Shown in pieces: positions 5,779 through 58,251 of a stretch of DNA of 64,000 bases. This DNA comes from Nitrospirota bacterium. GTDB taxonomy: Bacteria; JACPQY01. Where the stretch lies: NCBI GenBank assembly GCA_016190245.1, contig JACPQY010000031.1, forward strand, positions 1 to 64,000, written 5' to 3'. Numbering within the stretch: the stretch's first letter is position 1; the number at the start of each line of letters is the position of its first letter. The position numbers and the translations under genes were made by a program. Below the pieces are notes generated by a model. The model did not search any database. It saw nothing but the letters and a program-made list of their open reading frames with translations, and had not been told where the DNA came from.

Positions 5779-6126
5779 TTACAGGACGAGGTAGTTACGC
5801 AGCGATTGTTCCAACTCGGATTGTTTGGCAGGTGTAAGTTTGCCGATGGGCGGTCCGATCATCTTGGACTTGTCCACCGTCGTCACTTGGTGCGCCAGTG
5901 CTGCGCAGGACTTGGGAAGACCGCACTCGCCGGCTTGGAATAGGACGACCGTGGGAGACGGCACCTGCCAGCGAGGGGACGTCGTCAGCGGGACGACTGT
6001 AGCGCTGGCCCATCGAGGGTTTGAGGTGAAGGCGTCGTGCGAGACGAGGATGCAAGGCCTGCGGCCCTTCTCCTCCGAGCCGGACCTCGGGGCCAGATCG
6101 AGGAAGTAGATTTCTCCTCTTACCAC
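5779..6126 (-). CDS. mazF: MazF/PemK-family endoribonuclease toxin
   Basis: The 115-residue protein has the canonical MazF/PemK order: a start of the form RGEIYFLDL, then GRRPCILVSHDAF, a strand-rich middle with ATVVPLTTS, and a C-terminal half with CAALAHQVTTVDKSKM followed by IGKL. These are the positions that hold the catalytic Arg and Thr in characterised MazF proteins, which cut mRNA at short sequence motifs. The upstream antitoxin gene ends inside its start (7 bp overlap), so the pair is a two-gene operon. It lies between an exostosin-like gene and a 5' fragment of a second exostosin-like gene, as if inserted there. Confidence 0.85.
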   Translation of the reverse strand: MVRGEIYFLDLAPRSGSEEKGRRPCILVSHDAFTSNPRWASATVVPLTTSPRWQVPSPTVVLFQAGECGLPKSCAALAHQVTTVDKSKMIGPPIGKLTPAKQSELEQSLRNYLVL

Positions 6127-6422
6127 TCGGTCTCTTCGAGAAGTTTCCGCGCGGCGTGCGCCGTGGTTTGTCCGACAAGTTTCCGGCTCTGCGGGGCCAT
6201 CCTCTCCACGTACTCCCGCATCTCTTCGGCAATTCTTTCCGCCTCGGCCCTACGCAGGTATTCCTCAACAGCCTTTCTCATGATCTGGGCCGTTCTTGCG
6301 CCCTGGCGCCTGGCTTCCCTCTCAAGGGCGCGGTGAACGGGCATTGGAATGATTACGTGGAGGTCCTTTCGAGCATCCATTTTCATATCCATGATACTAT
6401 CCATGGGCACGGATGTTGTCAA
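6120..6422 (-). CDS. Antitoxin partner of the MazF-family toxin
   Basis: Small basic then acidic protein of up to 100 residues; the true start is probably one of the internal ATGs (residue 13 or 15), giving MDARKDLHVIIPMPVHRALER, a ribbon-helix-helix-like DNA-binding start (short strand, then helix). The C-terminal half is a long charged helix rich in Glu and Arg, as expected of a flexible toxin-neutralising tail. It overlaps the toxin start by 7 bp. I infer antitoxin function from position, size and the RHH-like N-terminus; there is no more specific match I can name. Confidence 0.7.
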   Translation of the reverse strand: MTTSVPMDSIMDMKMDARKDLHVIIPMPVHRALEREARRQGARTAQIMRKAVEEYLRRAEAERIAEEMREYVERMAPQSRKLVGQTTAHAARKLLEETEW

Positions 6423-6449
6423 CGGTGGCCTTCAACACCGTCGGGCGAC

Positions 6450-6546
6450 CAACCTCCGGGGTCTTGCCCCAAAAGGGGTAAAGCATCTGGACGTGCGGGC
6501 ACCCTCGCGGGAGATACGACTGGTCAGAGTAGATCTTGAGCTTCAC
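6450..6546 (-). pseudogene. 5' fragment of a second exostosin-like gene
   Basis: From a GTG at 6546 the minus strand encodes VKLKIYSDQSYLPRGCPHV and then MLYPFWGKTPE, closely matching the first 32 residues of the intact exostosin-like gene at 5739 (MKLKIYSDRSFLPPGMPHA, MLYPFWGKNPE). After the Pro-Glu the similarity stops and the antitoxin promoter region follows. The remaining 90% of the gene is gone. The remnant shows that two related exostosin genes once stood in tandem and that the MazF-type module now occupies the junction. Confidence 0.75.
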
Positions 6547-6582
6547 GACCGCGATCCGCCGGCTGCCCGGACGACGCCGCGC

Positions 6583-7002
6583 CTACTCGAGCAGCCCGAA
6601 ATGGCGAAGCACACTTGTGCAGAACTCCCTGAGCTGTCCGCGCTGCTGGTAGTACGAATAAGCGTCTTCGTGGCTGAGCACGCCGTACCGATGAACCAGG
6701 ACATTCCGGAATCCCGCCACCCTCTGCATGAACTCGGAAAGATCTCTCGTTATCACGCCATGTCTCTCCAACGGAGCGAAAAGGTCTCGATAGCGTTCGC
6801 CCATGTCCCAACCTTGGTCGGACACGACATGGGCAGCCAAGTCGATACAATCTTGCGCCACCTTCTCGAGGCCGAAGAGAATGATGGCCTGTGTCCCGAA
6901 ATCCTCCTTGAACGTGCTCAGTCCCACCTGCCCAAGCTGATCGATGTGTGACAAGAGCTCCCGCACGGATTGACACTTGCGGATGAGAACCTCTTTATCG
7001 AC
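6583..7002 (-). CDS. hepT: HepT-family toxin (HEPN RNase, DUF86)
   Basis: Starting at the ATG at 7002 (MVDKEVLIRK) the product is an all-helical protein of 139 residues with the HEPN signature RNVLVHRYG near residue 103-111, which is the R-x4-H-x-Y motif of HepT. In the characterised system, HepT is an RNase toxin that MntA silences by adding AMP to the motif Tyr. The gene overlaps the end of the nucleotidyltransferase gene upstream by 8 bp, the normal MntA-HepT order. An earlier in-frame start at 7044 would lie deep in mntA and is less likely. Confidence 0.85.
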   Translation of the reverse strand, partial: VDKEVLIRKCQSVRELLSHIDQLGQVGLSTFKEDFGTQAIILFGLEKVAQDCIDLAAHVVSDQGWDMGERYRDLFAPLERHGVITRDLSEFMQRVAGFRNVLVHRYGVLSHEDAYSYYQQRGQLREFCTSVLRHFGLLE

Positions 7003-7429
7003 CATCGGGCATGCGGGCCCATTCCCGAAGTCCGCGCGTAACATGCCTGCTCCAGAACGGCAGGTAGTCCATGGCCTCGATCACCGCCTCTGCACGGAAG
7101 CGCCGGTGGGCAAGCGCATCACCCTCCACGACGAGCCTCCCCTTGCGGAACACCTGCATCCTGAGGAGGTGGGGCGCGCGGTTGAGAACGACCACTTGAG
7201 CGTCTCGCTGGAAGAGACGGGACAAGACCCCCATTTCCTTCACTATGAAGTCGTCGATCTCCAGCCCTTCCAAGCCCTCCAGAAGGAACGCGACATCCAC
7301 GTCGCTCCTCTTCGTTGCCCGGCCGCGCGCCCAAGACCCGTACAGATAGACTGCGGTCACCCGCGGATCAGGACCGTACCGTTCCGAGAGGCGCCCCAGT
7401 ATTCCTTCAATCGTGAGGCTGTCCGACAT
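6995..7429 (-). CDS. mntA: MntA-family minimal nucleotidyltransferase antitoxin
   Basis: The likely start is the ATG at 7429 (MSDSLTIEGILGRL), giving 144 residues. The polymerase-beta-type active site is present: YGSWARGRATKRSDVDVAF, i.e. GS-x10-D-x-D, with a further Asp expected in the QVVVLN strand downstream. In known MntA-HepT pairs this enzyme AMPylates HepT and so acts as the antitoxin. The next gene is hepT, overlapping by 8 bp. The pair sits between methyltransferase and MazF-module genes, all on the minus strand, so it could ride on the glycan operon transcript. Confidence 0.85.
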   Translation of the reverse strand: MSDSLTIEGILGRLSERYGPDPRVTAVYLYGSWARGRATKRSDVDVAFLLEGLEGLEIDDFIVKEMGVLSRLFQRDAQVVVLNRAPHLLRMQVFRKGRLVVEGDALAHRRFRAEAVIEAMDYLPFWSRHVTRGLREWARMPDGR

Positions 7430-7522
7430 CGCATCTATTGTAGGCCGACCGGCTGCATCTTCCAACCGACTGTCTCGTGGGCACCGTCGGGCAACCACCT
7501 GCGAGGATTGACGTCATGAGTG

Positions 7523-8365
7523 TCACTTCCGCCTCGCCCCGCGCCGCTTCAACACGTACAGGGCTGTGGCGCCCTCCAGACGGTGCGGCCGTTCGGAGAA
7601 ATAGGCCACGACGTGGTCCAGCCACTCCACGAACGGCTCCACCCGCGAGTTGTCCAGCTTCGCGTCGCGCAGGGCGTTCGTCAGCCGCTTCCGAAGGTCC
7701 GCCAGCATGAGAGGCCCGCTCCCCCGAGAGTGGTCAAAGGTCCGCACCCGCACGAGCCGGAGCGAGGTGCCTGCCACCCATCGCTCGATATCGAAGGGCG
7801 AGATGAAATGCAGGTCGGAGAGCGACATGGGGACACGCAGCAGCATGTTGAGGGCCATCCAGATGAAGCCGCGGATGTTGAGGAAACAGGGGCAGGTTAG
7901 AATCAGGCTCCCCCCGGGCGAGAGCCGACGCGCCAGCGCCGCGATCGTTCCGCGGGGGTCGTCCGTGTGCTCGAGCGTTCCGCACGACACGATGACGTCG
8001 GCCCTACCTTTCCAGTTGGCGAGATCCATGCACCGGAAGCTCAGATTGGGGGCCTGGTGTGAGAGTTGCGCCTGCCTAATCGCGGACTCGGCGTAGTCAA
8101 TCCCCACGACGTCCCTCGCGCCTGCGCGCGCGATGAGAAAGGCCAGCGTACCCGTACCGCACCCCACGTCCAGGACACGCTTCCCCCTCCACCGGGTGGA
8201 GGCCAGCACCACCTCGTTTGTCTCGCTGACGTTCTTTCCGCGTACGAACTTGCTGAAGAACTTCTCTTCGCCCTTTTCGTAGACGCCCTCGTATAGCTCC
8301 TTGAGCGCGCGATTTCCCTTGCCGGGGCTTCCCACGGAAACCTTCACGACCCACGCTCCGCCCAC
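7523..8365 (-). CDS. Class I SAM-dependent methyltransferase
   Basis: The 280-residue protein carries a complete Rossmann methyltransferase core: RVLDVGCGTGTLAFLIA (motif I, about residues 63-79), VVGIDYAESAI (motif II with acidic Asp), DVIVSCGTLEHTDDP (motif IV region) and GGSLILTCP (motif VI). The Asp-Val-Gly-Cys-Gly-Thr-Gly loop binds SAM; the target is unknown, with an O- or C-methylated sugar or lipid carrier likely from context. Translation could start at ATG 8365 or at GTG 8347; the latter overlaps the upstream stop as GTGA, the coupling pattern used repeatedly in this window. Confidence 0.75.
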   Translation of the reverse strand: MGGAWVVKVSVGSPGKGNRALKELYEGVYEKGEEKFFSKFVRGKNVSETNEVVLASTRWRGKRVLDVGCGTGTLAFLIARAGARDVVGIDYAESAIRQAQLSHQAPNLSFRCMDLANWKGRADVIVSCGTLEHTDDPRGTIAALARRLSPGGSLILTCPCFLNIRGFIWMALNMLLRVPMSLSDLHFISPFDIERWVAGTSLRLVRVRTFDHSRGSGPLMLADLRKRLTNALRDAKLDNSRVEPFVEWLDHVVAYFSERPHRLEGATALYVLKRRGARRK

Positions 8366-45708: not shown

Positions 45709-47424
45709 CTACGGCTGCGTCGGGGCCTTCACTTCGAACGTCGTGCCGGCCCCGTTGACCTCCGCCCTGTACACTCTTACCCATCCGGAGTCCGGCATCC
45801 AGAAGATCACGATAGGAATCCGGTCTTCACCCACCTCGTCGTTGATGACGACCATTTCGGCGGAGCGCCGGACGCTGAAGGGATGGCCGTCCACATCCTT
45901 CGTCACCACCTCCGGCGGCGGGCTCGCGGTCTGCCCTTCTTCCGCGGGCGGGGGGGGCTCTGCGAGGAGGAGTTTCCTCTGCGCCCTCACGTCTCGCGGG
46001 AGATAACCCTTCTGGCCGCGAGGGTGAACAATCCCGAGAACGGGTTCCTTGTTCCTCACGTACCCTTCCGCGTCCTCCTTGTCCGCGAAGTGCTCGGGCC
46101 TGGGGTTGCCGATCCGAAAGGTGTCGCGATCGGTCTGGCGGTAGTCCTGGACGCCGTCGGCCGCCCGGTAGGGGTACCGCGTGTAGGCGCGGCGAAACCC
46201 CGTCTGAGCGGAAAGTACACGGGCCTGGGTCTCCCGATCGCCCGTGCGAAACCACTCCTTCCACTTGCCCCACGTGGTGCGAACGGCAGGCACCCCACAA
46301 CCGGAGACGAGACCGGGCTCGGGCGTACGCCGCGGCCCCCGCAGCGCCTGGAATCGAAGGGGGCTCCACCAGTTCTCCTCGAGGCGGTCGTAGAGGATGT
46401 GCGTCGAGTTGAGGAGGTAGCCGGACACGCCGAACGACAGGGCGGCCTCCGCGGAGAGAGCTGAATCGAGCAGCGTGTGGGCATCGGCGAGCGTGCTGTA
46501 GGTCACCGCGAAGCGGCGCCGGAGGCCGTCCTGACCGATGTAGAAGTCGTTGACCACCTCGTGCCACCAGAGGATCTTGAGCGGATAGGCGCGGGGCTCT
46601 CCGTTGACCACCGCACCGATCACCTCGTCCGCATCCCGCAGATACCAGCCCTTTACCCGAAGCATGTCGGATTCGATCGAAGCCCTCTGGTCCGTGCTGA
46701 GAGTGGCCTCGTCCTTCAGAGGGGCAAGATCGACGGCATCGCAGCAGGGCTCGGCGTCGCAGCACTTGGCCGGGGACTTGGGATCCTCCGCCTTCAGGCA
46801 GAGGCGGGACTCCTCGCGCGGGCGGCATTCCACCCAGAGCGAGTCGCGTTCGTCCTGAGCCACAAGCGAGGGGAGGCAGTCCCGTTCCTCGAAACAGCCG
46901 AGGAAGATCGGGTTGAGCGGACCGGATGCGGGATCATCGGGGTCCGCGGGAACGCGCCCGTCGCCCTCGCCGCCGTGGTCCTTGCCGACGAGGAGCGTCA
47001 GGCCCGTGCCGTAATCGTCTTCCGCCCAAGTGTCGAAGTAGTCGGCGCTTCGACGCCGCTTCTCTTCGTCGCTCGATCGAGACCACAAGTCGGCCGTGGG
47101 CCAGACGGTGTTCCACGCGAACCAGTGGGAGGTGATGGACTGTTCGTAGGGCCTGAGCCGGGCGCCTTGATCGGCCGGCGGTCCCTCAGCGGCCCTCCCC
47201 CAGAAATCCCAGACGGTCCCGGTCGCCTTGTCCAGGGCGGAAAAAGCCACGGCCGGGAGCGGAACGCCCTGACCGACCGAGGCGGCGTCCTCCGCGCAGG
47301 ACCCGAACGGGCCGTCGTGGTACGCGCTCGGCCGCGCGGCCCCGCCCCCGCCGCACGCGGAAAGACCCAGAATGGCGAGACAACAGAAAGAAACGGCGGG
47401 CACGCGCGACGGACCGGGAAACAC
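45709..47424 (-). CDS. DUF3179 lipoprotein with Cys-rich insert
   Basis: The signal peptide ends in the lipobox LGLSAC (Cys24), so the protein is likely a lipid-anchored envelope protein. The DUF3179 domain follows from about residue 265 (GAVVNGEPRAYPLKILWWHEVVNDFYI, FAVTYSTLADAH, FGVSGYLLNSTHILYDR, ENWWSPLRFQALRG). A segment at residues 177-228 holds eight Cys, including CCDAEPCCD, which could bind metal or form disulfides and is unusual. DUF3179 proteins have no fixed function. The 5' end is 45 bp from the divergent panE gene. Confidence 0.8.
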   Translation of the reverse strand: MFPGPSRVPAVSFCCLAILGLSACGGGGAARPSAYHDGPFGSCAEDAASVGQGVPLPAVAFSALDKATGTVWDFWGRAAEGPPADQGARLRPYEQSITSHWFAWNTVWPTADLWSRSSDEEKRRRSADYFDTWAEDDYGTGLTLLVGKDHGGEGDGRVPADPDDPASGPLNPIFLGCFEERDCLPSLVAQDERDSLWVECRPREESRLCLKAEDPKSPAKCCDAEPCCDAVDLAPLKDEATLSTDQRASIESDMLRVKGWYLRDADEVIGAVVNGEPRAYPLKILWWHEVVNDFYIGQDGLRRRFAVTYSTLADAHTLLDSALSAEAALSFGVSGYLLNSTHILYDRLEENWWSPLRFQALRGPRRTPEPGLVSGCGVPAVRTTWGKWKEWFRTGDRETQARVLSAQTGFRRAYTRYPYRAADGVQDYRQTDRDTFRIGNPRPEHFADKEDAEGYVRNKEPVLGIVHPRGQKGYLPRDVRAQRKLLLAEPPPPAEEGQTASPPPEVVTKDVDGHPFSVRRSAEMVVINDEVGEDRIPIVIFWMPDSGWVRVYRAEVNGAGTTFEVKAPTQP

Positions 47425-47469
47425 GGGGCTGGATTATACAGGAAGAATCCCGTAACGTGCCTCTCTCGG

Positions 47470-48429
47470 ATGCGGATCGTGATTTTCGGCGCCGGAGCGA
47501 TCGGCTCCGCGATCGGCGCTCACCTCGCGCCGGAGAACGAGGTCACGCTCGTGGGCCGGCCGGCCCACATGGCGGCCATCCGGCGCGACGGCCTCCGGTT
47601 GGAAGGCATCCTCGGCCGGCGGCGAGTGAGACGGCTGGCGGCCGCGGATTCCCTGCCTCACGGAACGCCGTTTGACGCCGCCTTGGTGACGACAAAATCT
47701 TTCGATACAGGCGCGGCAGCCGACCTACTGCGCTCTCTGTCCCCGACTCCGCGCCTCGTGTGCAGCTTCCAGAACGGCCTTGGAAACGCCGACGTGCTTC
47801 GGAAGACGTTCCCGAGAACGCCTGTCGGGCTTGCGCGCGTGATCTTCGGCGCAAAGATCGTCCGGCCCGGGCGTGTTCGCATCACCGTGTTCGGCGCACC
47901 TGTCGAGATCGGTCCCGATCCCCGGCAGTCCCGCCCCCTCTCGGCGCGAGGCCGGCCACTGCTGATCGCCTTGGCCCGATCGCTGGCGCGCGCAGGCCTG
48001 CCCACCGTGTACAACCCGGCCGCGTGGAGGGTTCTGTGGATGAAAGTGCTGTACAACGGCGCCCTCAATCCGCTCAGCGCCCTCTTCGGCCGGACCTACG
48101 GCGAGGTCTGCGAGCACCCGGTCACCCGCGCGATCTGCCTGGACACCCTGCGCGAAGGCTTCGCCGTGGCCGAGGCGGAGGGGGCACGGCTTCCGTTCCG
48201 GTCGGCCGACTCCTTCGTCCGCTACTTCCTGAGCCGGATGCTGCCCCCCACTGCAGCCCACCGGGCGTCCATGTACGAAGACTTGGTTTCGGGAAGGCGG
48301 ACGGAGATCGACGCCTTGTGCGGCGAGATCGTGCGTCGTGCCCGCCGCCACGGCCTCCCCACACCGCAGAACCGCCTCCTCTGGTCGGCGATCAAACAGC
48401 GCGAGGGAGAAGGCCGGAACCGCAGGTGA
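47470..48429 (+). CDS. panE: 2-dehydropantoate 2-reductase
   Basis: The enzyme reduces ketopantoate in pantothenate (CoA) synthesis with NADPH. The ATG at 47470 gives MRIVIFGAGAIGSAIGAHLA, the nucleotide loop. Further marks are ALVTTKSFDT, VCSFQNGLGNADVL (with the catalytic-site Asn), AWRVLWMKVLYNGALNPLSALFG (catalytic Lys and Asn) and TEIDALCGEIVRRARRHGLPTPQN. 319 residues, complete. An upstream extension of the frame is antisense to the DUF3179 gene and not used. Confidence 0.85.
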   Translation: MRIVIFGAGAIGSAIGAHLAPENEVTLVGRPAHMAAIRRDGLRLEGILGRRRVRRLAAADSLPHGTPFDAALVTTKSFDTGAAADLLRSLSPTPRLVCSFQNGLGNADVLRKTFPRTPVGLARVIFGAKIVRPGRVRITVFGAPVEIGPDPRQSRPLSARGRPLLIALARSLARAGLPTVYNPAAWRVLWMKVLYNGALNPLSALFGRTYGEVCEHPVTRAICLDTLREGFAVAEAEGARLPFRSADSFVRYFLSRMLPPTAAHRASMYEDLVSGRRTEIDALCGEIVRRARRHGLPTPQNRLLWSAIKQREGEGRNRR

Positions 48430-48445: not shown

Positions 48446-49147
48446 CTACGGCCTGTGCTGGCGAGGAAGCAGATCCGCCAACTCACGCAGGTTTCGAAAT
48501 ACGAAGTCGGGAGCGGGGCGCACGCGACCCACGGGGCCCCGCTGGATGAGCGCGGTTCTGAGGCCGAGACGGTGGGCCACACCGAGATCGTACTTCACCC
48601 CGAAGGCGCAGTGCAGCACCTCCTCCGGGCGCGCCGCGGCCACCTCCAGCAGCCGGAGAAAGGGCCTGTCGGAGGGCTTGTAGGCCCTCACGTCCTGCGC
48701 CGCCACAACGGCGTTGAAGAAAACGCCGATGGACCCGAGCGTACGTTCGAGCAGATCCCTGTCCATGTTCGAGACCACGGCCAACAGATAGCGCTCCCGG
48801 AGCTTTTCCAGCGAGGGTCGGACGTCTTCGAACGGCCGCCAGTCGCGCAACCCCTTCACCAGCGCAAGCGATTCGCGCGGGGTCACCGCCATTCCTTTCT
48901 CGCGCAGGAGGCGGCGGAAGCTTTCCTTCAACACCTCGCGATAGGACCGGTACGGATCGAGGAGGTCGTACTGGATCTTCTCCCAGCGCCGGAAGAGCCG
49001 GCCGGCGTCAGCCCGGAGGCGCCTCTTCCGCATCGCCCCGGCCAGCGCTTCCCGAATCCCGCTCTCCCAGTCGATCAGCGTCCCGTAGCAATCGAAACTG
49101 ATCCAGCGGAGGGCGGGGAAAATGGGTCGGTTGGCAGCCGGGATCAT
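48446..49147 (-). CDS. HAD-family hydrolase (haloacid dehalogenase type)
   Basis: Residues 14-25 FDCYGTLIDWES hold the nucleophile Asp motif; AVVSNMDRDLLERTL is motif II (Ser/Thr) and AYKPSDRPFLRLLEVA motif III (Lys). The C-terminal acidic block is VKYDLGVAHRLGLRTALI, with the expected Asp. The cap insertion is alpha-helical, as in dehalogenase/phosphoglycolate-phosphatase types. It follows the degenerate pyrophosphatase gene by 93 bp on the same strand, and its end lies 17 bp from the convergent panE end. Confidence 0.8.
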   Translation of the reverse strand: MIPAANRPIFPALRWISFDCYGTLIDWESGIREALAGAMRKRRLRADAGRLFRRWEKIQYDLLDPYRSYREVLKESFRRLLREKGMAVTPRESLALVKGLRDWRPFEDVRPSLEKLRERYLLAVVSNMDRDLLERTLGSIGVFFNAVVAAQDVRAYKPSDRPFLRLLEVAAARPEEVLHCAFGVKYDLGVAHRLGLRTALIQRGPVGRVRPAPDFVFRNLRELADLLPRQHRP

Positions 49148-49239: not shown

Positions 49240-51234
49240 TCACCGCAACAACACGGCGCACCCCAAGCTCAGGATCGCCATGAGCTTGACGAGGACACCC
49301 ACCGAGGGAGCCGCGACCTCTCTCACAAAGGCTCCGGTCTCCTCACAGCCGACCAGATGGCTGAGAAGGAACCCAAGGATCAGAGCGGAGGCGATGGAAC
49401 CCATCAGCAAGGCGTTCAACATCTCTGAGTTGGCCAGTCCGAACGCGATCGGTGCTGCAACCGCAAGAAAAGCAGGGAATCTGACCCCTCTCAGCGCAGA
49501 ACTGGCCAACGAGTCGGCTCGTCCGTCATCAGCCCCGTTGGCTGGAACCTCCCCTTCGCGCGCGCCTTGGGGAGGCTGAACGGCGACCCTCCCCGGTGTC
49601 CCCTGTGCCAGCAAGCCTGCCCTCCTGAACAGGGAAGAAACTACCAGGATGGGCAGCAGCCCCCCAGCAACCAATGCCGCGAGGCTGCCTGGGCGGGAGG
49701 GATCGATCACCGTCACGGAGACGCTGCTACAGTACGCAAGGACCACCGAGACGGCCGACAGGACGGCTCCTGCCAAGGCGTTCCCACCGGCGTCCTCGCG
49801 CGTTCCACCAGCCGCGGCCACGGCCCGCCTCTTTCCCTCCTGGGGGAGGTCATCCCCGGCCCCGAGCGGCGCGGCGGTCTGGGCGAGCGTTCGAATCGCT
49901 GCCGCAGCGCTCTCGGCAAACCTCAACCCGCTCATGGAAAGAAATCCAATCGCGAGGACAGCGACACCGTACGGCCCCGCCAAACCATGCGCAAGGGCCA
50001 CGGCCGCGCAGACCACCGCCGCGGACCAGAACGTCGGTCGCACCGAGGCCGCTATGGGCCCGAACCGGGGCAGCTCCCACGGTCCCGCAGATCCGCCGTT
50101 CGCCACTCGAGGATATTGTGAGACCCGCGATGCATGCCTCGATGCGATCGTGCTGATCAGCCCCGCTGCCGCGAGGCCCAGGAGCATCGAGGCGAACACC
50201 CGGCCTGGTCCGAATTCGCCCCCTGGGCTCTCGTATTGAGCCGGCATCACCCACCGCGTGAGGGTGAATCCGAAAGCAACCATCAGAACCACCGACACTC
50301 CCCGCCCCGTCCCTGCCGCGGTGCGGGTCGCTTCAACCCGTCCGATCCCCGTGAGGAGGTGCCCCACCACGGAGGCCACAATGCCGGCGCCCGCCAGGAC
50401 GAGCGGCAGGAACACGAGCTCCGGCACGAAGCTCGTCCTCTCCGGGAGCTTCAGCCCGGCCGTGCCGATGAGCATGCAGGCCAAGACGGCGACGGCCTCT
50501 GACTGGAACAGGTCGGCCCCCGCGGCCAGCGTGTTCATGACCCCGCGCGCGACTCGTTCCGAAAGGTCAGCGGCACCCATGGTCAGGGCATCCCGCGCCG
50601 CCACTTCCTCCCCGTGCGGCCATTGGGCTCGCGCGGAAAGGCCGTGCGCCCAAAGTCCGCCGCCCAGACAGACCAAGAACGCCGCGCAGGAGGACCCCAG
50701 ACCGAACCCCACGAGAACCTCAGCGATCCTGCCCAATTCGGGCTGCCCGCCCACCCTGAAAACCATCACGCACAAGCCGAACAAGACACTCAGACCGAGC
50801 AAGGCCATCCCCCCCCAGGTCATGCCGGCAACTCCGCCTCCGATCCACGCCGTTCTCGCGGCCAGGGAAACGTCGCCCCCGGAGGCAGCGCCCCGCCCCA
50901 GCGCACCCACCGCCGCCCTCGCTCCCAACCGTTCCGCCAGAGCCGAGCCGGCGACTCCCACCGCAAAAGCGAAGGCCATGAGGGGATGGCCGACACCCCC
51001 CCCCCGGCTGGAGAGAACGGCCCCCAACAGCACACCCCCCCCCACAAGCCCGACCAGCGCCAGAATCAGTTGCGCACGGCGGAGCCAGACCGACACGGCC
51101 GCGCGACCCGCTGCGGAATGCCCCCCAACCGACGCGCGATCGCGTCCGGGCAGCTCCAAGACAAGCAGCAGGACAAGGGCGTAGCCGAGGGCGAAGACCC
51201 CCGAGGCCGCCGTGAGCCAAGCATACCCCACCAT
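49240..51234 (-). CDS. Degenerate membrane pyrophosphatase (HppA-like) without catalytic residues
   Basis: A 664-residue protein with about 16 hydrophobic segments that can be aligned by eye end to end with membrane-bound pyrophosphatases. The fold positions match, but the ligands do not: the family block [23 protein letters not shown] is LSERVARGVMNTLAAGADLFQSE here, the K/D-rich GADLVGKVE segment is gone, the GPxxDNAGG block is AAIRTLAQT, and the ANAGGAWDNAKK and GDTVGDPFKDT blocks near the C-terminus are missing. GNTTxA is replaced by GGTREDA. It should not bind or hydrolyse pyrophosphate, yet the frame is intact. It directly follows hppA (101 bp), suggesting a partner or regulator role. 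Confidence 0.75.
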   Translation of the reverse strand: MVGYAWLTAASGVFALGYALVLLLVLELPGRDRASVGGHSAAGRAAVSVWLRRAQLILALVGLVGGGVLLGAVLSSRGGGVGHPLMAFAFAVGVAGSALAERLGARAAVGALGRGAASGGDVSLAARTAWIGGGVAGMTWGGMALLGLSVLFGLCVMVFRVGGQPELGRIAEVLVGFGLGSSCAAFLVCLGGGLWAHGLSARAQWPHGEEVAARDALTMGAADLSERVARGVMNTLAAGADLFQSEAVAVLACMLIGTAGLKLPERTSFVPELVFLPLVLAGAGIVASVVGHLLTGIGRVEATRTAAGTGRGVSVVLMVAFGFTLTRWVMPAQYESPGGEFGPGRVFASMLLGLAAAGLISTIASRHASRVSQYPRVANGGSAGPWELPRFGPIAASVRPTFWSAAVVCAAVALAHGLAGPYGVAVLAIGFLSMSGLRFAESAAAAIRTLAQTAAPLGAGDDLPQEGKRRAVAAAGGTREDAGGNALAGAVLSAVSVVLAYCSSVSVTVIDPSRPGSLAALVAGGLLPILVVSSLFRRAGLLAQGTPGRVAVQPPQGAREGEVPANGADDGRADSLASSALRGVRFPAFLAVAAPIAFGLANSEMLNALLMGSIASALILGFLLSHLVGCEETGAFVREVAAPSVGVLVKLMAILSLGCAVLLR

Positions 51235-51335
51235 CCGTTCTCGAACCGTCCTACAATCCGGCGAGCCTTGTCAACCGCCGGGACCTGAGAACCGGCCGCT
51301 GAAAGCTGGGCGCCCGCAGAGAGTCGAGGGCAGCC

Positions 51336-53777
51336 TCAGCCGCGCGTCCCTCTGTCCTCGGGAATCCGCATCCCGTAGAAGGACCGGTACACGAAGAAAA
51401 GAGCCACGAGGAAGAAACCGACCGCAATCGCCGTCTTGAGCCCGCCGGAGGGCATGGTGACGGCGATCTCGACGGCGAGAAGACCGAAGAGCGTCGTGAA
51501 CTTAATCACGGGGTTCAGCGCCACGGACGACGTGTCCTTGAACGGATCGCCCACCGTATCGCCCACCACCGTGGCCTCGTGCAACGGCGTGTTCTTCTGC
51601 CTCAAATCCACTTCCACAACTTTCTTCGCGTTGTCCCACGCCCCGCCGGCGTTCGCCATGAAGATCGCCTGGAACAGGCCGAAGAAAGCGAGCGCCACGA
51701 GGTAGCCAATGAAGAAATAGGGGTTGAAGAACGCGAGCGCGAGAGCGAGGCAGAAAATCACAATGAAGATGTTGATCATCCCCTTCTGCGCATAGATCGT
51801 GCAGATCTCGACGACCCGCTTGCTGTCCTTGATCGAGGCCGTGCTCGCGCCCTCCAGCTTGATGTTCTCCTTGATGTACACCACCGCGCGGTAGGCCCCC
51901 GTGACGACGGCCTGCATGGACGCACCCGTGAACCAGTAGACAACCGCACCGCCCATGATCAAGCCGAGGATAACCTCCCCTTGGACCAGACTGAGCCTCG
52001 CCACGACGTCGCCGAACAGGTGCTCCAGCAGCAGGATGATGCCGAAGACCATCGTGGTTGCGCCCACAACGGCCGTCCCGATCAAGACCGGCTTCGCGGT
52101 CGCCTTGAACGTGTTGCCGGCGCCGTCCCCTTCCTCGAGATACTCCTTGGACCTCTCGAAGTTAACTTCGACCCCGAACTCCTTCTTCACCTCCTGGGCC
52201 ACGTTGGGCAGCTTCTCGATCAGCGAGAGCTCGTAGACCGACTGGGCGTTATCCGTGACCGGGCCGAAGCTGTCCACGGCGATCGTCACGGGCCCCATCC
52301 CGAGGAACCCGAACGCCACGAGGCCGAACGCAAAGATCGGCGCGGCGAAGCCGTATTCGGCCGGCATGAGCTCGACGAGGGCGGGATGCTGTGAGGCCGT
52401 GTAGGCGATGAACATGAGCAGGAGGATCACGAGCCCCTCCCAGAAGGCCGAGAAATTCCCGGCCACGAAGCCCGAGAGGATGTTGAGAGAGGCGCCGCCC
52501 TGGCGCGCGGACGTGACGACCTCACGCACGTGTCGCGAGTTGGTGCTCGTGAAGATCTTCGTGAACTCGGGGATCAGGGCACCCGCCGCGGTGCCGCAAC
52601 TGATGATGACCGCCAGCACCCACCACAGGGGTCCGAAGCCGGAAATGAGAAGGTAGCTCGCCACGAACGTGACGCCGATGGAAATCGCCGACGTGAGCCA
52701 GACAAGTCTCGTGAGCGGCGTCTCGAAGTTGATCTTCGTCTTCCCCCGCGCCCACTGCCGGGTCGCTGCGGAGTTGATGAAGTAGGAAACGAGCGACGTC
52801 AGGATCATGAGGATCCTCATCACGAAGATCCAAATGATGAGCGCGCCGCACATCTCGGGCTTGGCAGCGAGGGCCAGCGCCAGGAAGGCGATCAGCGCCA
52901 CGCCCGTCACACCGTAGGTCTCGAAACCGTCGGCCGTCGGCCCCACGCTGTCGCCCGCGTTGTCCCCCGTGCAATCCGCGATCACGCCGGGGTTCTTGGG
53001 ATCGTCCTCCGGCAGGTGAAAGACGATCTTCATGAGGTCGGAGCCGATGTCGGCGATCTTCGTGAAGATCCCGCCGCAGATCCTGAGCACGCTTGCGCCC
53101 AGCGACTCACCGATTGCGAATCCGATGAAGCACGGCCCCGCCAGGTCTTGCGGCAGGAATGTCAGGATGCAGATCATGAAGAACAGCTCCACGCTGACCA
53201 AGAGCAGCCCCACACTCATCCCGGAACGAAGGGGAATGGCGAGGATATCGAGAGGGTTCTTATAGAGGGAGGCAAACGCCGTTCGCGAATTGGCCACGGT
53301 GTTGATCCGGATACCGAACCACGCCACGCCGTAGGAACCGAGGATGCCCAGAATCGAACAGGCGAGGATCACGAGAACGTTGTGAAGCGACGCGCCCTGA
53401 AGGCCGGCAAAGTAGTACGTCATGCAAACCGCGATCAAGGCCCAGAGGCCGGCGAGGAACTTCCCCTGCTGTGTGAGATAGGTCTTGCAGGTCTCCCAGA
53501 TTGTGTTCGAGACCTCCTGCATGGCCGGGTGGACCGGGAGGGCCTTCGTCTGAGAGTACTGGATGATCCCGAATACCGCGCCGATCACGCAGATCGCAAG
53601 CCCCGCGTACATCAGGCCGAGGCCGGAGACGTACCAACCGAACATCTCGAACGTCACCGTGTCCAGCCTCGGGAGGTGAATATCCGCCTCTCCTGCGAGC
53701 ACCGGTGAGGCGAAAACCGCGGGGACTAGCCCGCCCGCGATCAGTGATCCGATCCTGCGTAGGCTTGCTTTGAGCAT
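51336..53777 (-). CDS. hppA: H+-translocating membrane pyrophosphatase
   Basis: Uses pyrophosphate hydrolysis to pump protons. The likely start is the ATG at 53777 (MLKASLRRIGSLIAGGLVPAVFA), an N-terminal signal-like helix. Catalytic blocks are complete: TKIADIGSDLMKI, DDPKNPGVIADCTGDNAGDSVGPTADGFETYGV, GPVTDNAQSVYELS, MANAGGAWDNAKK and GDTVGDPFKDTSSVALN. The GNTFKA motif has Lys where K+-dependent enzymes have Ala, which in the family goes with K+ independence. It is about 813 residues. Two tandem hairpins lie in its leader. Confidence 0.95.
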   Translation of the reverse strand: MLKASLRRIGSLIAGGLVPAVFASPVLAGEADIHLPRLDTVTFEMFGWYVSGLGLMYAGLAICVIGAVFGIIQYSQTKALPVHPAMQEVSNTIWETCKTYLTQQGKFLAGLWALIAVCMTYYFAGLQGASLHNVLVILACSILGILGSYGVAWFGIRINTVANSRTAFASLYKNPLDILAIPLRSGMSVGLLLVSVELFFMICILTFLPQDLAGPCFIGFAIGESLGASVLRICGGIFTKIADIGSDLMKIVFHLPEDDPKNPGVIADCTGDNAGDSVGPTADGFETYGVTGVALIAFLALALAAKPEMCGALIIWIFVMRILMILTSLVSYFINSAATRQWARGKTKINFETPLTRLVWLTSAISIGVTFVASYLLISGFGPLWWVLAVIISCGTAAGALIPEFTKIFTSTNSRHVREVVTSARQGGASLNILSGFVAGNFSAFWEGLVILLLMFIAYTASQHPALVELMPAEYGFAAPIFAFGLVAFGFLGMGPVTIAVDSFGPVTDNAQSVYELSLIEKLPNVAQEVKKEFGVEVNFERSKEYLEEGDGAGNTFKATAKPVLIGTAVVGATTMVFGIILLLEHLFGDVVARLSLVQGEVILGLIMGGAVVYWFTGASMQAVVTGAYRAVVYIKENIKLEGASTASIKDSKRVVEICTIYAQKGMINIFIVIFCLALALAFFNPYFFIGYLVALAFFGLFQAIFMANAGGAWDNAKKVVEVDLRQKNTPLHEATVVGDTVGDPFKDTSSVALNPVIKFTTLFGLLAVEIAVTMPSGGLKTAIAVGFFLVALFFVYRSFYGMRIPEDRGTRG

Positions 53778-53895: not shown

Positions 53896-54010
53896 CTACC
53901 AGGACATCCTTTCGACACCCGACACGTGGTCGAAGTGATCGTCCCGGCTGAGGATCGGGAGCCGATGCCGGCGTGCCGGGGCGAACGGTTGCACGGGGGC
54001 AGCCCGCCGG
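53896..54010 (-). pseudogene. C-terminal remnant of a PIN-domain toxin gene
   Basis: About 38 codons read QPFAPARRHRLPILSRDDHFDHVSG then VERMSW and a TAG at 53896. The RRHRLPILSRDDHFDHVxG phrase, with an Asp pair before a final Trp, is the C-terminal end of VapC-type PIN proteins. No N-terminal part or antitoxin is left. It lies between hppA and tldD on the minus strand. Confidence 0.5.
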
Positions 54011-54015
54011 GATCG

Positions 54016-55599
54016 TCAGAGGATCCGCGCCCGGGACCGCAGCGTGGGGCCGCCGTTTCCCAGGCGTTTGGTCTGCATGGGTTGGCCCTTGCCGCAGTTG
54101 GGGATCGGGAAGACTCGGAAGTCGGACCCCACGGCGTCCACGTTCATGAAGAACTCGCGGCTGTCGGCCGTGAGACCGCCGTCGCGATAGAGTTGCCCCA
54201 GCTTTCCGTCGCGGATCTCGTACACCTTGCGCGCGGAAATCCGGAAGTTTTCCCTCGACTCGGAAATGCTCGGGATCTTGTGACCCACCAAGTAGAACCC
54301 CCGCTCGACCTCCGAAAGCATCGCGGCCGGATCGTCGGTCCCCGCCGCGAAGACCGTCGTGGACATCCGGATCAGAGGCACCATCGTGGCTGCCGTGGCC
54401 TTGTAGTGACCGTTCGGAGGCGACGCGATGCCCGCCGCCCCGAGCATGGCGGAGGTCTGACGGCTGTTCATGAAGCCGCTGAAGATCCCGCGATCGATGT
54501 GCACAACCCGGGCCGCAGGCACACCTTCGTCATCGTAGGCATAGTGCCCATAGCCGGGCAGCGACGGATCGGAGTAGGCCGAGAGCTTTTCCGAGGCGAT
54601 GCGGTCGCCCAGGTGATGCGCCTTCGGCGAGCCGAAAAGCCAGGTGCGCCCCGCGTAGGCCGTCTCCATCTTGAGCGCGCGGTCGAGCTCCACGGGGTGT
54701 CCCACGATCTCGTGAACGAGGAGGGTGTTGTAGTGCGGGTCCGTCAGGACAACGACCGGCTTTTCGGACGCGGGGACCTTGGGGGCACGGCACAACTCCA
54801 CCGCGTCCCGCGCGAGGCCACGGACGAAGGCCAGGAAATCTGGGAGCTTCTCGATGCCGTTGTCCACGCCCTCCCCTATCACTTCCCATCCCAGATTGGA
54901 GCCGAGCGTGTCGTAGATTTCCTGCGTCACCTCCTTCTCTTCGGCGACCACGTAGGCGTTCCCTTCGGTGAGGGCCCAAGCCTGGTCGATACACGCCCCG
55001 GCCGCCGAGAGGAACAACTGACGGCGGAGCGCCGTGGCCGCGGCGGCATGAGTGTACCGCACCGCCGGATCCGTTCCTTGAGCCTCGCGAGAAGCGGCCA
55101 CCGCCAACTCCGTCACCTCAGCAAGGCGCACCTCGCGAGGGTCACGGCGGTAGGTCGCAGGGATGTTCGCCTCCGAGACCGGCGCAGGCGCGAGCTCGGT
55201 GGACGACAGTGACAGCCCCGCCGCACCGAACGACGCGCGCGCCTCGGCCTTCCGCCCCGCATTCTCTCTCGCCCGCCGCCACGCGCGGCCCAGCGCCCGC
55301 CGGACCACGCCGCACGCGTCGGTCCAGTCCGCCGGCCCCAGTCTAACTCCGTAGTACCCCGCCGCCACGGTCCCGCGGAAGGAGCCCGCGCCTCTCGCCA
55401 ACACCCTCACGCCCAGGTTGGACTCCGAGTCCTTCTCCGCCATCCGCGCCTCTCCGCACTCGGCCGAGGCCCACTGCGACTCCTCGACTTCGATCCGAAC
55501 GTCGGCATGCACCGTGCCGGTGTGGCGTCGCGCAAACTCTGCGACTGCGGCGCGCAGATCGCTCTTCACGCGATCGATGTCTTCTATTCGTATCGGCAT
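54016..55599 (-). CDS. tldD: TldD/PmbA-family metalloprotease, TldD type
   Basis: From ATG 55599 the protein has the TldD layout: an N-terminal domain, then VLTDPHYNTLLVHEIVGHPVELDRAL with the HExxxH zinc motif, GTWLFGSP-like stretch, GHYAYDDEGVPAARVVHIDRGIFSGFMNSRQTSAMLG and the C-terminal beta domain (YEIRDGKLGQLYRDGGLTADSREFFMNVDAVG). TldD works with TldE/PmbA to cleave unfolded peptides and mature RiPPs. No TldE/PmbA gene is in view here. About 527 residues, near the family norm. Confidence 0.85.
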   Translation of the reverse strand: MPIRIEDIDRVKSDLRAAVAEFARRHTGTVHADVRIEVEESQWASAECGEARMAEKDSESNLGVRVLARGAGSFRGTVAAGYYGVRLGPADWTDACGVVRRALGRAWRRARENAGRKAEARASFGAAGLSLSSTELAPAPVSEANIPATYRRDPREVRLAEVTELAVAASREAQGTDPAVRYTHAAAATALRRQLFLSAAGACIDQAWALTEGNAYVVAEEKEVTQEIYDTLGSNLGWEVIGEGVDNGIEKLPDFLAFVRGLARDAVELCRAPKVPASEKPVVVLTDPHYNTLLVHEIVGHPVELDRALKMETAYAGRTWLFGSPKAHHLGDRIASEKLSAYSDPSLPGYGHYAYDDEGVPAARVVHIDRGIFSGFMNSRQTSAMLGAAGIASPPNGHYKATAATMVPLIRMSTTVFAAGTDDPAAMLSEVERGFYLVGHKIPSISESRENFRISARKVYEIRDGKLGQLYRDGGLTADSREFFMNVDAVGSDFRVFPIPNCGKGQPMQTKRLGNGGPTLRSRARIL

Positions 55600-55707
55600 G
55601 AGGACGCCTCGTCTATTCAGGTTGAGAGAAGCAACGGAATCACTCCGGTGCGAGATGGCTTCGTCGCCGAGCCTCCTCGCCATGACGAGGAAGGCCATGC
55701 TACATGC

Positions 55708-55815
55708 CGTGCCATCCGTGGCACGGCGACACCTCATGGCCCCATACCGTCCTCGGCAAGGGGATGTCATTGCGATCCGCCGACTGGCGGAGAAGCCATC
55801 TCATGGCTCCGGGGT
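55708..55815. repeat. Dispersed palindromic repeat between polB and tldD
   Basis: Contains the perfect stem CGTGCCA-TCCG-TGGCACG (55708-55725) and GATGTCATTGCGATCCGCC with GGCGGAGAAGCC, pieces similar to the repeat before rplY. This accounts for most of the 240-bp gap between polB and tldD. Confidence 0.5.
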
Positions 55816-55840
55816 CCTTCTTGTTAACAATGGACACCGC

Positions 55841-58093
55841 CTATTCCTCTACCGCAACGGGCTCTCCGTCCGGTGTGCGGATGAACGGCTCAAACTTCTC
55901 GTAGAGCTCTCCCAGCTTGCCCAGGTAGTACTCGGTGTTTTCGTCCGGGCGGCGAGGGTCCCATGTGCTCGCGAGCTTGCACGCCTGATGGACCTTGACG
56001 TTCCGGCCCGACCCCGTCACGTAGTAGGAGATCTGATCCCCGGCCTGGTAGTGCCGCCCCGCGCTGAGGGCCAGCTCGTACGCGGCCGCAATGTTGCGCT
56101 TCTTGGCCCGCACCTTCTCCTGGTAGTTCTGGGGGGCCTCCTGGAGCGTCTCCGTCTTCATGAACAGCCGTACCGGCACCCGGTGTTCCTTGAAACGGGT
56201 CCTGAAATCCTCCGTGAGTTGGGCCACCGCGTCCCGCCGGCCGTGAAGGAGCAGGAGAAACATCTCCTCCATCCACTGGCGCTGGAAGAGTTCGATCCCG
56301 CGCGAACGGAGGCCCGAGCCTTTCACCAAGAGCTCTTTCTTCTCGTTGAGGAGGGCGTAGTTCTTGATCTTGTAGCTCAGCATCGCCGGGTACCGACCGT
56401 CGAGTTCGAGACGAATCCCCTCCGGCAGGGCCGCCTCGATGCCGCGAAGAAGCGCCTCCTGCTCCGCGACCGGCATCTTTTCAGGCGGCACGAAGTAGAT
56501 CCCATCCGTGTCCACCTCGATCAACCGGCAGCCCGCCTCCTGGAGCCGGGCCATGATGCCCGTGATGGTCTCGCGGCCCCGTTCCGTGACGCGGTTCGCC
56601 TGCTCGAAATCGTTGAAGTGGGCCATCTCGAACCCGAGGTAGCCGTAGAACGAATTGATGAGAATCTTGAACGTAGCTTGAAGGGCGTGGGCGTGCCGGC
56701 GGTCGGCCGGATCGCGGGCCTCCTGTTCCCGGCGCTTGGCCTGGACGCGGAACTCGCGCAGGTCGCCAAGGAGGCGGGGGAAGACGCCCAACTGGTCCCT
56801 CCGCGGCGAGCACTCGAACACGAGCATGAGCGAGGGGTACAGGGACGTGATGTCGCAATGCAACACGCCGCGCGCCACTCCATGGAACAGGATGTCCGTG
56901 TACCCGCCCTGGATGGGCTTTGCCGGCTCCGGCAGCGGAACGGAGTACCGGGCCTGAAGGTAGGCCCTGAGAAAGAGCGTGTCGATCTTCGTCGCGTTGC
57001 CCCTCAGCATGGTGTTTTGGAAGCTGAGCGGAAAGATCTGCGCCTGCACGAAGTAGCCCGGGAGCAGAATGTCGCTGATCTTGCGCGTCTCCCGAACGTC
57101 GTCCAGGTTGTACCGGCGGAGCCGGTCGGGGTCTTCCTTGTAGGCCCTCCCGATATCCTCCGGGGCAAGGTACACGCGGTCCTCTGCCGCCACGCCGAAA
57201 TGCACCGCCACTTCCTTGAGGCCGAAGCTCTCCAGGTCGCGTGTGGCGATGTCGTAGTGCTGAACCAAGATGAACGTATCCACGATGTGCCGGCCATGCA
57301 CGTCGAAGCGCGTGTAGCTGATCGCGCGCTCCCCGATCTGCATGCGCGAGGGGTGGCTTTCGAGCGGCCGGCCGCCGCGCCCCCACATGAGCTGAACGCC
57401 GTACCGCTTCGCCCTCGCCTGGACGTACGCGAGATCGAACTTGAAGAGGTTGTGCCCCTCGATCACATCCGGATCCTGGGTGCGGATGCACTCGTTCAGT
57501 TCCTCGAGCATCTCGGCTTCGGGCTTGTCCCCGAAGATGACGTGCTCCCAGCCGCCGGTCGTGGAGAGGGCGATGGAGATGATCCGATCGCCTTCGCGCT
57601 GGGGATTCGGGAACTCGAAGCCCGCTTCGCAGTACGTCTCGATGTCGATCTGGAGGCGCAGCAGGTCCTCGAACTTGAGCTTCTTGAACTGCGTGCGCCC
57701 TGTGGCCATGAGGTACTGCTGTACGAGATCCGAGACGTAGAGATAGGGCGCGTCGAGGGCCGCCGGCGAACGGGCCGACTTGCGCTGCAGGTGCTTCTTG
57801 AGGTTCTCGAGACTGAGGGCGCTTTTGAGACGGACTCGCCAGCGCAGGGCGTGATCCCCCGCGAACTCGTCCACGGCCACATCCTCCCGGAATCCGCGAA
57901 GCAGGTCCCGGTCTGCGAGGAGGACGAAGGGCTCGAAGGCGACGACCTCCGTCTCCACCCGATCTCCTTCGCGGCGGAAGATCTCGACGCGCTCGCCGCC
58001 GGGCTCGATCTCGGCGGCTACGATGCCAGGGGTCGGGTCGGCCCCGAAGAGGACGGGGTTTTCATCCCACGATCCCACCTGTCTGCCGGCCAT
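55841..58093 (-). CDS. polB: Family B DNA polymerase
   Basis: All motifs of a proofreading family B polymerase are present. 3'-5' exonuclease: DIETY (150-154), EGHNLFKFDLAYV (212-224) and YNLDDV (328-333). Polymerase: motif A DITSLYPSLML (414-424), motif B KILINSFYGYLG (476-487) and motif C DTDGIYF (528-534). At 750 residues it is compact. Bacterial family B enzymes are usually Pol II repair/bypass polymerases; this one lies alone, without lexA or other SOS genes, upstream of a tldD-type gene and divergent from the pseudo-receiver gene. Confidence 0.9.
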   Translation of the reverse strand: MAGRQVGSWDENPVLFGADPTPGIVAAEIEPGGERVEIFRREGDRVETEVVAFEPFVLLADRDLLRGFREDVAVDEFAGDHALRWRVRLKSALSLENLKKHLQRKSARSPAALDAPYLYVSDLVQQYLMATGRTQFKKLKFEDLLRLQIDIETYCEAGFEFPNPQREGDRIISIALSTTGGWEHVIFGDKPEAEMLEELNECIRTQDPDVIEGHNLFKFDLAYVQARAKRYGVQLMWGRGGRPLESHPSRMQIGERAISYTRFDVHGRHIVDTFILVQHYDIATRDLESFGLKEVAVHFGVAAEDRVYLAPEDIGRAYKEDPDRLRRYNLDDVRETRKISDILLPGYFVQAQIFPLSFQNTMLRGNATKIDTLFLRAYLQARYSVPLPEPAKPIQGGYTDILFHGVARGVLHCDITSLYPSLMLVFECSPRRDQLGVFPRLLGDLREFRVQAKRREQEARDPADRRHAHALQATFKILINSFYGYLGFEMAHFNDFEQANRVTERGRETITGIMARLQEAGCRLIEVDTDGIYFVPPEKMPVAEQEALLRGIEAALPEGIRLELDGRYPAMLSYKIKNYALLNEKKELLVKGSGLRSRGIELFQRQWMEEMFLLLLHGRRDAVAQLTEDFRTRFKEHRVPVRLFMKTETLQEAPQNYQEKVRAKKRNIAAAYELALSAGRHYQAGDQISYYVTGSGRNVKVHQACKLASTWDPRRPDENTEYYLGKLGELYEKFEPFIRTPDGEPVAVEE

Positions 58094-58251
58094 CGGAATT
58101 CACGCTAGCCAAGATGCGGGGGCAAGTCAAAGTCCACCCCCGGCGGGAGAGGCACCCATGGGCGGCACTTCAGCTCGTGCGATGCGCCCGGGTTTGACCC
58201 CGGGCCGAAGCCTGTCATAATCGGGCCGCACGTGCCGGCGCATCCGCAATC

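Follow-up and report, generated by a model that had tools for sequence, protein, structure and literature searches.

The window analysed was the whole 64,000-nucleotide stretch of contig JACPQY010000031.1 from a Nitrospirota bacterium, the source genome of which is a draft of 86 contigs, 85% complete, with a contamination estimate of 0.8%. Its minus strand carries, in this order, polB (58093-55841), tldD (55770-54016), hppA (51336-53777), the gene under study (49240-51234) and a gene for a HAD hydrolase (48446-49147; PF00702). The hppA gene is complete, encodes all catalytic residues, and was assigned to the divergent K+-independent type of membrane pyrophosphatase (mPPase) from its GNTFKA motif, a match of 1322 bits to NF001950 and its position in trees. 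Its start at 53777 is the probable one and was inferred from the orthologue in G001, another genome of the phylum; the reading frame itself reaches an upstream GTG at 53918. The gene under study has an ATG start and encodes a degenerate mPPase-fold protein of 664 residues, referred to here as P0001. It is separated from hppA by 101 bp and is directly followed by the HAD gene, which agrees with the layout described in an earlier sequence-only reading of this DNA (101 bp behind a complete hppA, with a HAD hydrolase next).

A search around the P0001 locus for repeats left by an insertion event gave none that was convincing. Promoter and terminator scans of the locus gave nothing above chance. An exact TTGACA hexamer is located at 51269-51274 (minus strand), in the 101-bp gap before the P0001 gene, and another lies just upstream of 53777 on the same strand, before hppA; the promoter scan gave no full match, and separate promoters for hppA and the P0001 gene are only a possibility. 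Very long open frames are also present on the plus strand at 46477-48429 and 55418-58108, where they wholly or partly overlap minus-strand genes. These look like by-products of high G+C content and are a warning against calling genes here from open frames alone.

Profile comparison of P0001 with PF03030 (H_PPase) gave 128.9 bits against a cut-off of 29.7 (E 3.3e-37), with residues 46-624 aligned to profile positions 34-583 of 645, a coverage that places the protein in the superfamily. The NCBIfam mPPase models scored 47-162 bits, every one under its curated cut-off (the best being 162 bits against 546), and P0001 was not recognized at the equivalog level as any active mPPase type. VrPPase was matched at E 8e-11 using phmmer. 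The AlphaFold2 model of P0001 contained exactly 16 helices; it was built from an alignment of only four sequences and was of moderate confidence (pTM 0.70, mean pLDDT 61). When compared with the PDB, the model matched TmPPase at E 8e-19 with a TM score of 0.77, and all 36 best matches were mPPases. The homology of P0001 to mPPases over its full length is beyond doubt. The relationship proposed by eye in the sequence-only reading was thus borne out by both the profile and the structure comparisons, either of which could have failed to detect it. The open frame of 664 codons and the 16 predicted helices likewise bear out its description of an intact frame with intact membrane segments.

Residue retention was counted against the mPPases of 29 relatives plus the neighbouring HppA, using the 139 alignment columns in which at least 95% of the sequences carried one residue. 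P0001 retained 42 of these near-invariant residues. Losses fell on charged and polar positions, with 1 of 15 Asp, 1 of 8 Lys, none of 8 Asn, none of 4 Glu, 1 of 5 Arg and 1 of 8 Thr kept; retention was 19 of 37 for the invariant Gly and 3 of 4 for Ser. The corresponding figures for HppA were 15 of 15 Asp and 8 of 8 Lys. The Asp/Lys/Asn blocks that bind Mg-pyrophosphate had been described beforehand as substituted or lost, and this proved correct. Two of the substitutions were exact as given: in the alignments LSERVARGVMN (residues 224-234; 50533-50565, minus strand) replaces the Mg-PPi-binding [11 protein letters not shown], so that D6.35, D6.39 and D6.43 become E, R and N, and AAIRTLAQT (residues 445-453; 49876-49902, minus strand) replaces GPxxDNAGG. 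The GDTVGDPFKDT block, said to be missing, was found instead to be degraded to EETGAFVREV, with R at position K16.38 and E at position D16.39. It is the preceding cytoplasmic loop (loop 15-16) that is deleted, about 27-40 residues including DNAKK...H, after the codon for C630 (49345-49347, minus strand). The nucleophile-activating pair is accordingly changed at both members (D6.43 to N, D16.39 to E), and the set of Mg-PPi ligands is not present. Judged from these residues, P0001 cannot be an active pyrophosphatase by the established mechanism.

The sole invariant Asp kept, D241 (codon 50512-50514, minus strand), is the ion-gate residue D6.50, equivalent to D294 of VrPPase, and the sole invariant Lys kept, K650 (codon 49285-49287, minus strand), is K16.50 of the gate, equivalent to VrPPase K742. 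With the gate residues defined as in PMC5150537 and PMC10897367, four of seven were retained, namely S182 (S5.43), D241, S245 (S6.54) and K650; C189, Q244 and G646 replace R5.50, E6.53 and N16.46, and the gate is therefore incomplete. No position of the hydrolytic centre was kept, in contrast to these four of the gate. This difference was noticed post hoc and may reflect the stability of the fold alone.

In canonical mPPases, conservation is highest in the helices of the inner ring (5, 6, 11, 12, 15 and 16). The ratio of P0001-to-canonical identity was lowest in precisely these helices (0.29-0.40) and ranged from 0.43 to 0.78 in the outer helices, from which it follows that the catalytic constraint is gone. 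At the dimer interface, helices 10 and 13 were average (approximately 0.5) and helix 15 stood at 0.38; special constraint on the interface was thus not visible. The frame is unbroken across its 664 codons at approximately 30% identity to the nearest relatives. Under fully saturated neutral drift about 14 stops would be expected (P ~7e-7), an estimate that assumes saturation and the present base composition of the gene. G+C content at the three codon positions was 0.71, 0.57 and 0.77, and codon log-odds favoured the correct frame only. The RSCU correlation was 0.84, one of the two lowest values in a set of seven genes, the codon bias being weaker than in most neighbours. The intact frame and the coding bias of this single known sequence argue for maintenance of the gene.

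P0001 was 17% identical to HppA and 27-33% identical to K+-dependent mPPases. Two quick trees placed it within or beside the K+-dependent canonical group, with HppA in the divergent K+-independent group; its exact position is unsure because the branch was at the limit of the program (saturated). The two trees and the 17% identity led us to reject tandem duplication of the adjacent hppA as the origin of the gene. The term "paralogue", used for P0001 in the sequence-only reading, is thus not supported if it is taken to mean that the neighbouring gene was copied in tandem. In G001, the one other genome of the phylum compared, the order polB-tldD-hppA-HAD is the same, hppA and HAD lie a few bases apart, and the HAD gene directly following hppA (L034:8153-8848) encodes a protein 53% identical to that of the window. 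G001 has a single mPPase and no P0001 counterpart, so that the gene was either acquired in the source genome's line or lost in that of G001. A second mPPase beside hppA was present in none of the 80 loci carrying the closest HppA relatives, as far as the contigs extend. The conserved adjacency to hppA, the lack of which in relatives the sequence-only reading had itself named as counting against its proposal, was consequently absent from both G001 and these loci. Soluble pyrophosphatases of families I and II were not detected in the source genome (85% complete) or in G001; HppA alone therefore handles PPi, as far as is visible.

Scans of genome contigs and viral contigs and a plasmid search yielded no close relative of P0001. 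When sets of 98, 386 and 289 partly overlapping genomes were searched, the matches examined (149 bits or less) were all mPPases with intact catalytic motifs. The motifs were likewise intact in the copies examined from G038, G049, G064 and G088. In G061, a tandem pair of mPPases lies about 110 bp apart (L035:3766-5784 and 5895-8222), one K+-dependent (GNTTAA) and one K+-independent (GNTTKA); as a parallel to hppA-P0001 it was rejected because catalytic motifs are present in both copies. Three other unusual mPPases also have intact catalytic motifs. In two of approximately 1100 residues (L205:341-3655 in G005 and L206:248-3622 in G153), the pump domain is interrupted midway by a hydrophilic insertion of about 250 residues that probably forms an additional domain on the non-cytoplasmic side. 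The third, in G283 (L207:549-3230), has an acidic Ala/Glu-rich insertion of more than 100 residues ahead of its final two helices.

A second group of degenerate mPPases was found in a survey of 386 genomes for PF03030, in which 46 genomes with several or odd matches were re-examined. Two low-scoring full-length mPPase-like proteins were found in G261 and G124 and, with their relatives, were present in eight genomes (L136:6402-8420, L137:6254-8221, L199:5421-7397, L200:7047-9026, L201:7747-9732, L202:7014-9017, L203:112-2145 and L204:8354-10333). Each of these genomes has one degenerate mPPase and one of live type, the latter elsewhere in the genome. The degenerate proteins keep 3-11 of the 15 Asp and 6-7 of the 8 Lys, and D6.43 has given way to S or N in all eight. 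The surroundings can be read on the contigs of seven genomes; in each of these tpiA-fba lies directly downstream of the degenerate gene, and in six of them a gene named pfp (PPi-dependent phosphofructokinase) from its sequence, not by profile, then follows. Between G124 and G386, dN/dS of the degenerate gene was 0.088 at high dS, with 0.02-0.09 for neighbouring genes; on these substitution ratios the second lineage is clearly selected, under strong purifying selection, from which it follows that the mPPase fold can persist without the standard active site. Selected mPPase pseudoenzymes, partly degenerate and putatively inactive, are accordingly real at least in this lineage. The eight proteins form one clade (support 99) with P0001, 20% identical to them, outside it, and degenerate mPPases therefore arose at least twice in bacteria.

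Because the P0001 gene lies on the same strand and just behind the only pyrophosphatase gene detected, the simplest reading of P0001 is an accessory role, serving either the pump or the membrane potential. We give about even chances to the gene encoding a non-catalytic mPPase, or pseudoenzyme, with such a role. P0001 would be made together with HppA, the sole pyrophosphatase detected in the genome, would, as its relatives do, form a dimer in the membrane, and would bind no Mg-pyrophosphate, acting as an accessory and not as a pump. Most likely it would be co-expressed with HppA and, itself hydrolysing nothing, would be a partner or modulator of the ion transport that HppA drives, either by contact or through a separate gated ion path. 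Counting against the accessory reading are the single sequence, the weak codon bias and the saturated branch, which would also fit relaxed constraint, and the interface helices without special retention; moreover, the absence of the gene from G001 indicates that HppA can do without P0001. Contact in its most specific form, a P0001-HppA heterodimer in which the inactive subunit would control the active one via half-of-the-sites behaviour, is suggested by the adjoining genes on one strand and by the inter-subunit asymmetry and half-of-the-sites reactivity of mPPase dimers (PMC10897367; see also PMC6530997). We regard it as unlikely, given that P0001 derives from another mPPase subfamily, that helices 10, 13 and 15 are not preferentially retained, that the HppA of G001 exists alone and that no P0001-like gene adjoins hppA in the 80 related loci; the evidence gives it no advantage over a P0001 homodimer that acts independently and has a residual ion path.

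A separate membrane protein that does not touch HppA, such as a gated leak for ions along the old pump path, would account for the retention of S5.43, D6.50, S6.54 and K16.50 in a protein that has lost its hydrolytic centre; with R5.50, the gate Glu and N16.46 gone, and with a D6.50/K16.50 pair that may serve folding alone in a contrast observed after the fact, such a role seems unlikely. We attach a similarly low likelihood to a decaying, functionless gene that has yet to acquire a stop in a G+C-rich genome with long chance frames. Such decay would fit the single known copy, its absence from G001, the saturated branch, the low RSCU correlation (0.84) and the lost catalytic residues, but neutral decay this deep should leave stops and frameshifts, and P0001, although 70% diverged, is still homologous in frame over its full length and retains 16 hydrophobic helices and a coding bias. 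That an assembly or binning artefact put a foreign gene between hppA and HAD is highly improbable. The genome is indeed a draft of 86 contigs at 85% completeness and the gene is represented by one sequence, but it fits cleanly between genes that adjoin each other in G001, its ends are intact, its G+C matches, and the contamination estimate is 0.8%. Speculatively, and with more doubt than confidence, non-catalytic mPPases might constitute a regulatory or sensing class, evolved at least twice (beside hppA and in the pseudo-mPPase-tpiA-fba-pfp operon), that tunes PPi energy metabolism, either in partnership with a live pump or as a membrane sensor of PPi.

Kinases and proteases include well-known pseudoenzymes. 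In the open-access literature, subscription journals being mostly outside the scope of the search, no description of an mPPase pseudoenzyme was found, and the earlier statement that a system of this kind had not been described is in keeping with this. P0001 is a known fold in a new form, not a new kind of system. A natural mPPase in which the hydrolytic centre and the gate evolve apart offers a ready test of the linkage between catalysis, gating and dimer asymmetry. The operon family selected beside a PPi-dependent phosphofructokinase suggests that PPi-based glycolysis has a membrane component, a subject on which we know of no study.

With the K+-dependent mPPases (PF03030; TmPPase, VrPPase) P0001 shares full-length homology, the 16-helix fold and part of the ion gate, and it differs from them in that every Mg-PPi ligand is substituted or deleted and loop 15-16 is shortened. 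The divergent K+-independent HppA (NF001950 group) belongs to the same superfamily and is encoded by the adjacent gene, but it keeps all catalytic residues, and P0001, at 17% identity, is of another subfamily. The mPPase fold, the loss of catalytic residues and the replacement of D6.43 are common to P0001 and the degenerate mPPases of the tpiA-fba-pfp loci; the latter, however, retain far more residues and have a glycolytic context away from hppA, whereas P0001 sits between hppA and HAD and not upstream of tpiA-fba.
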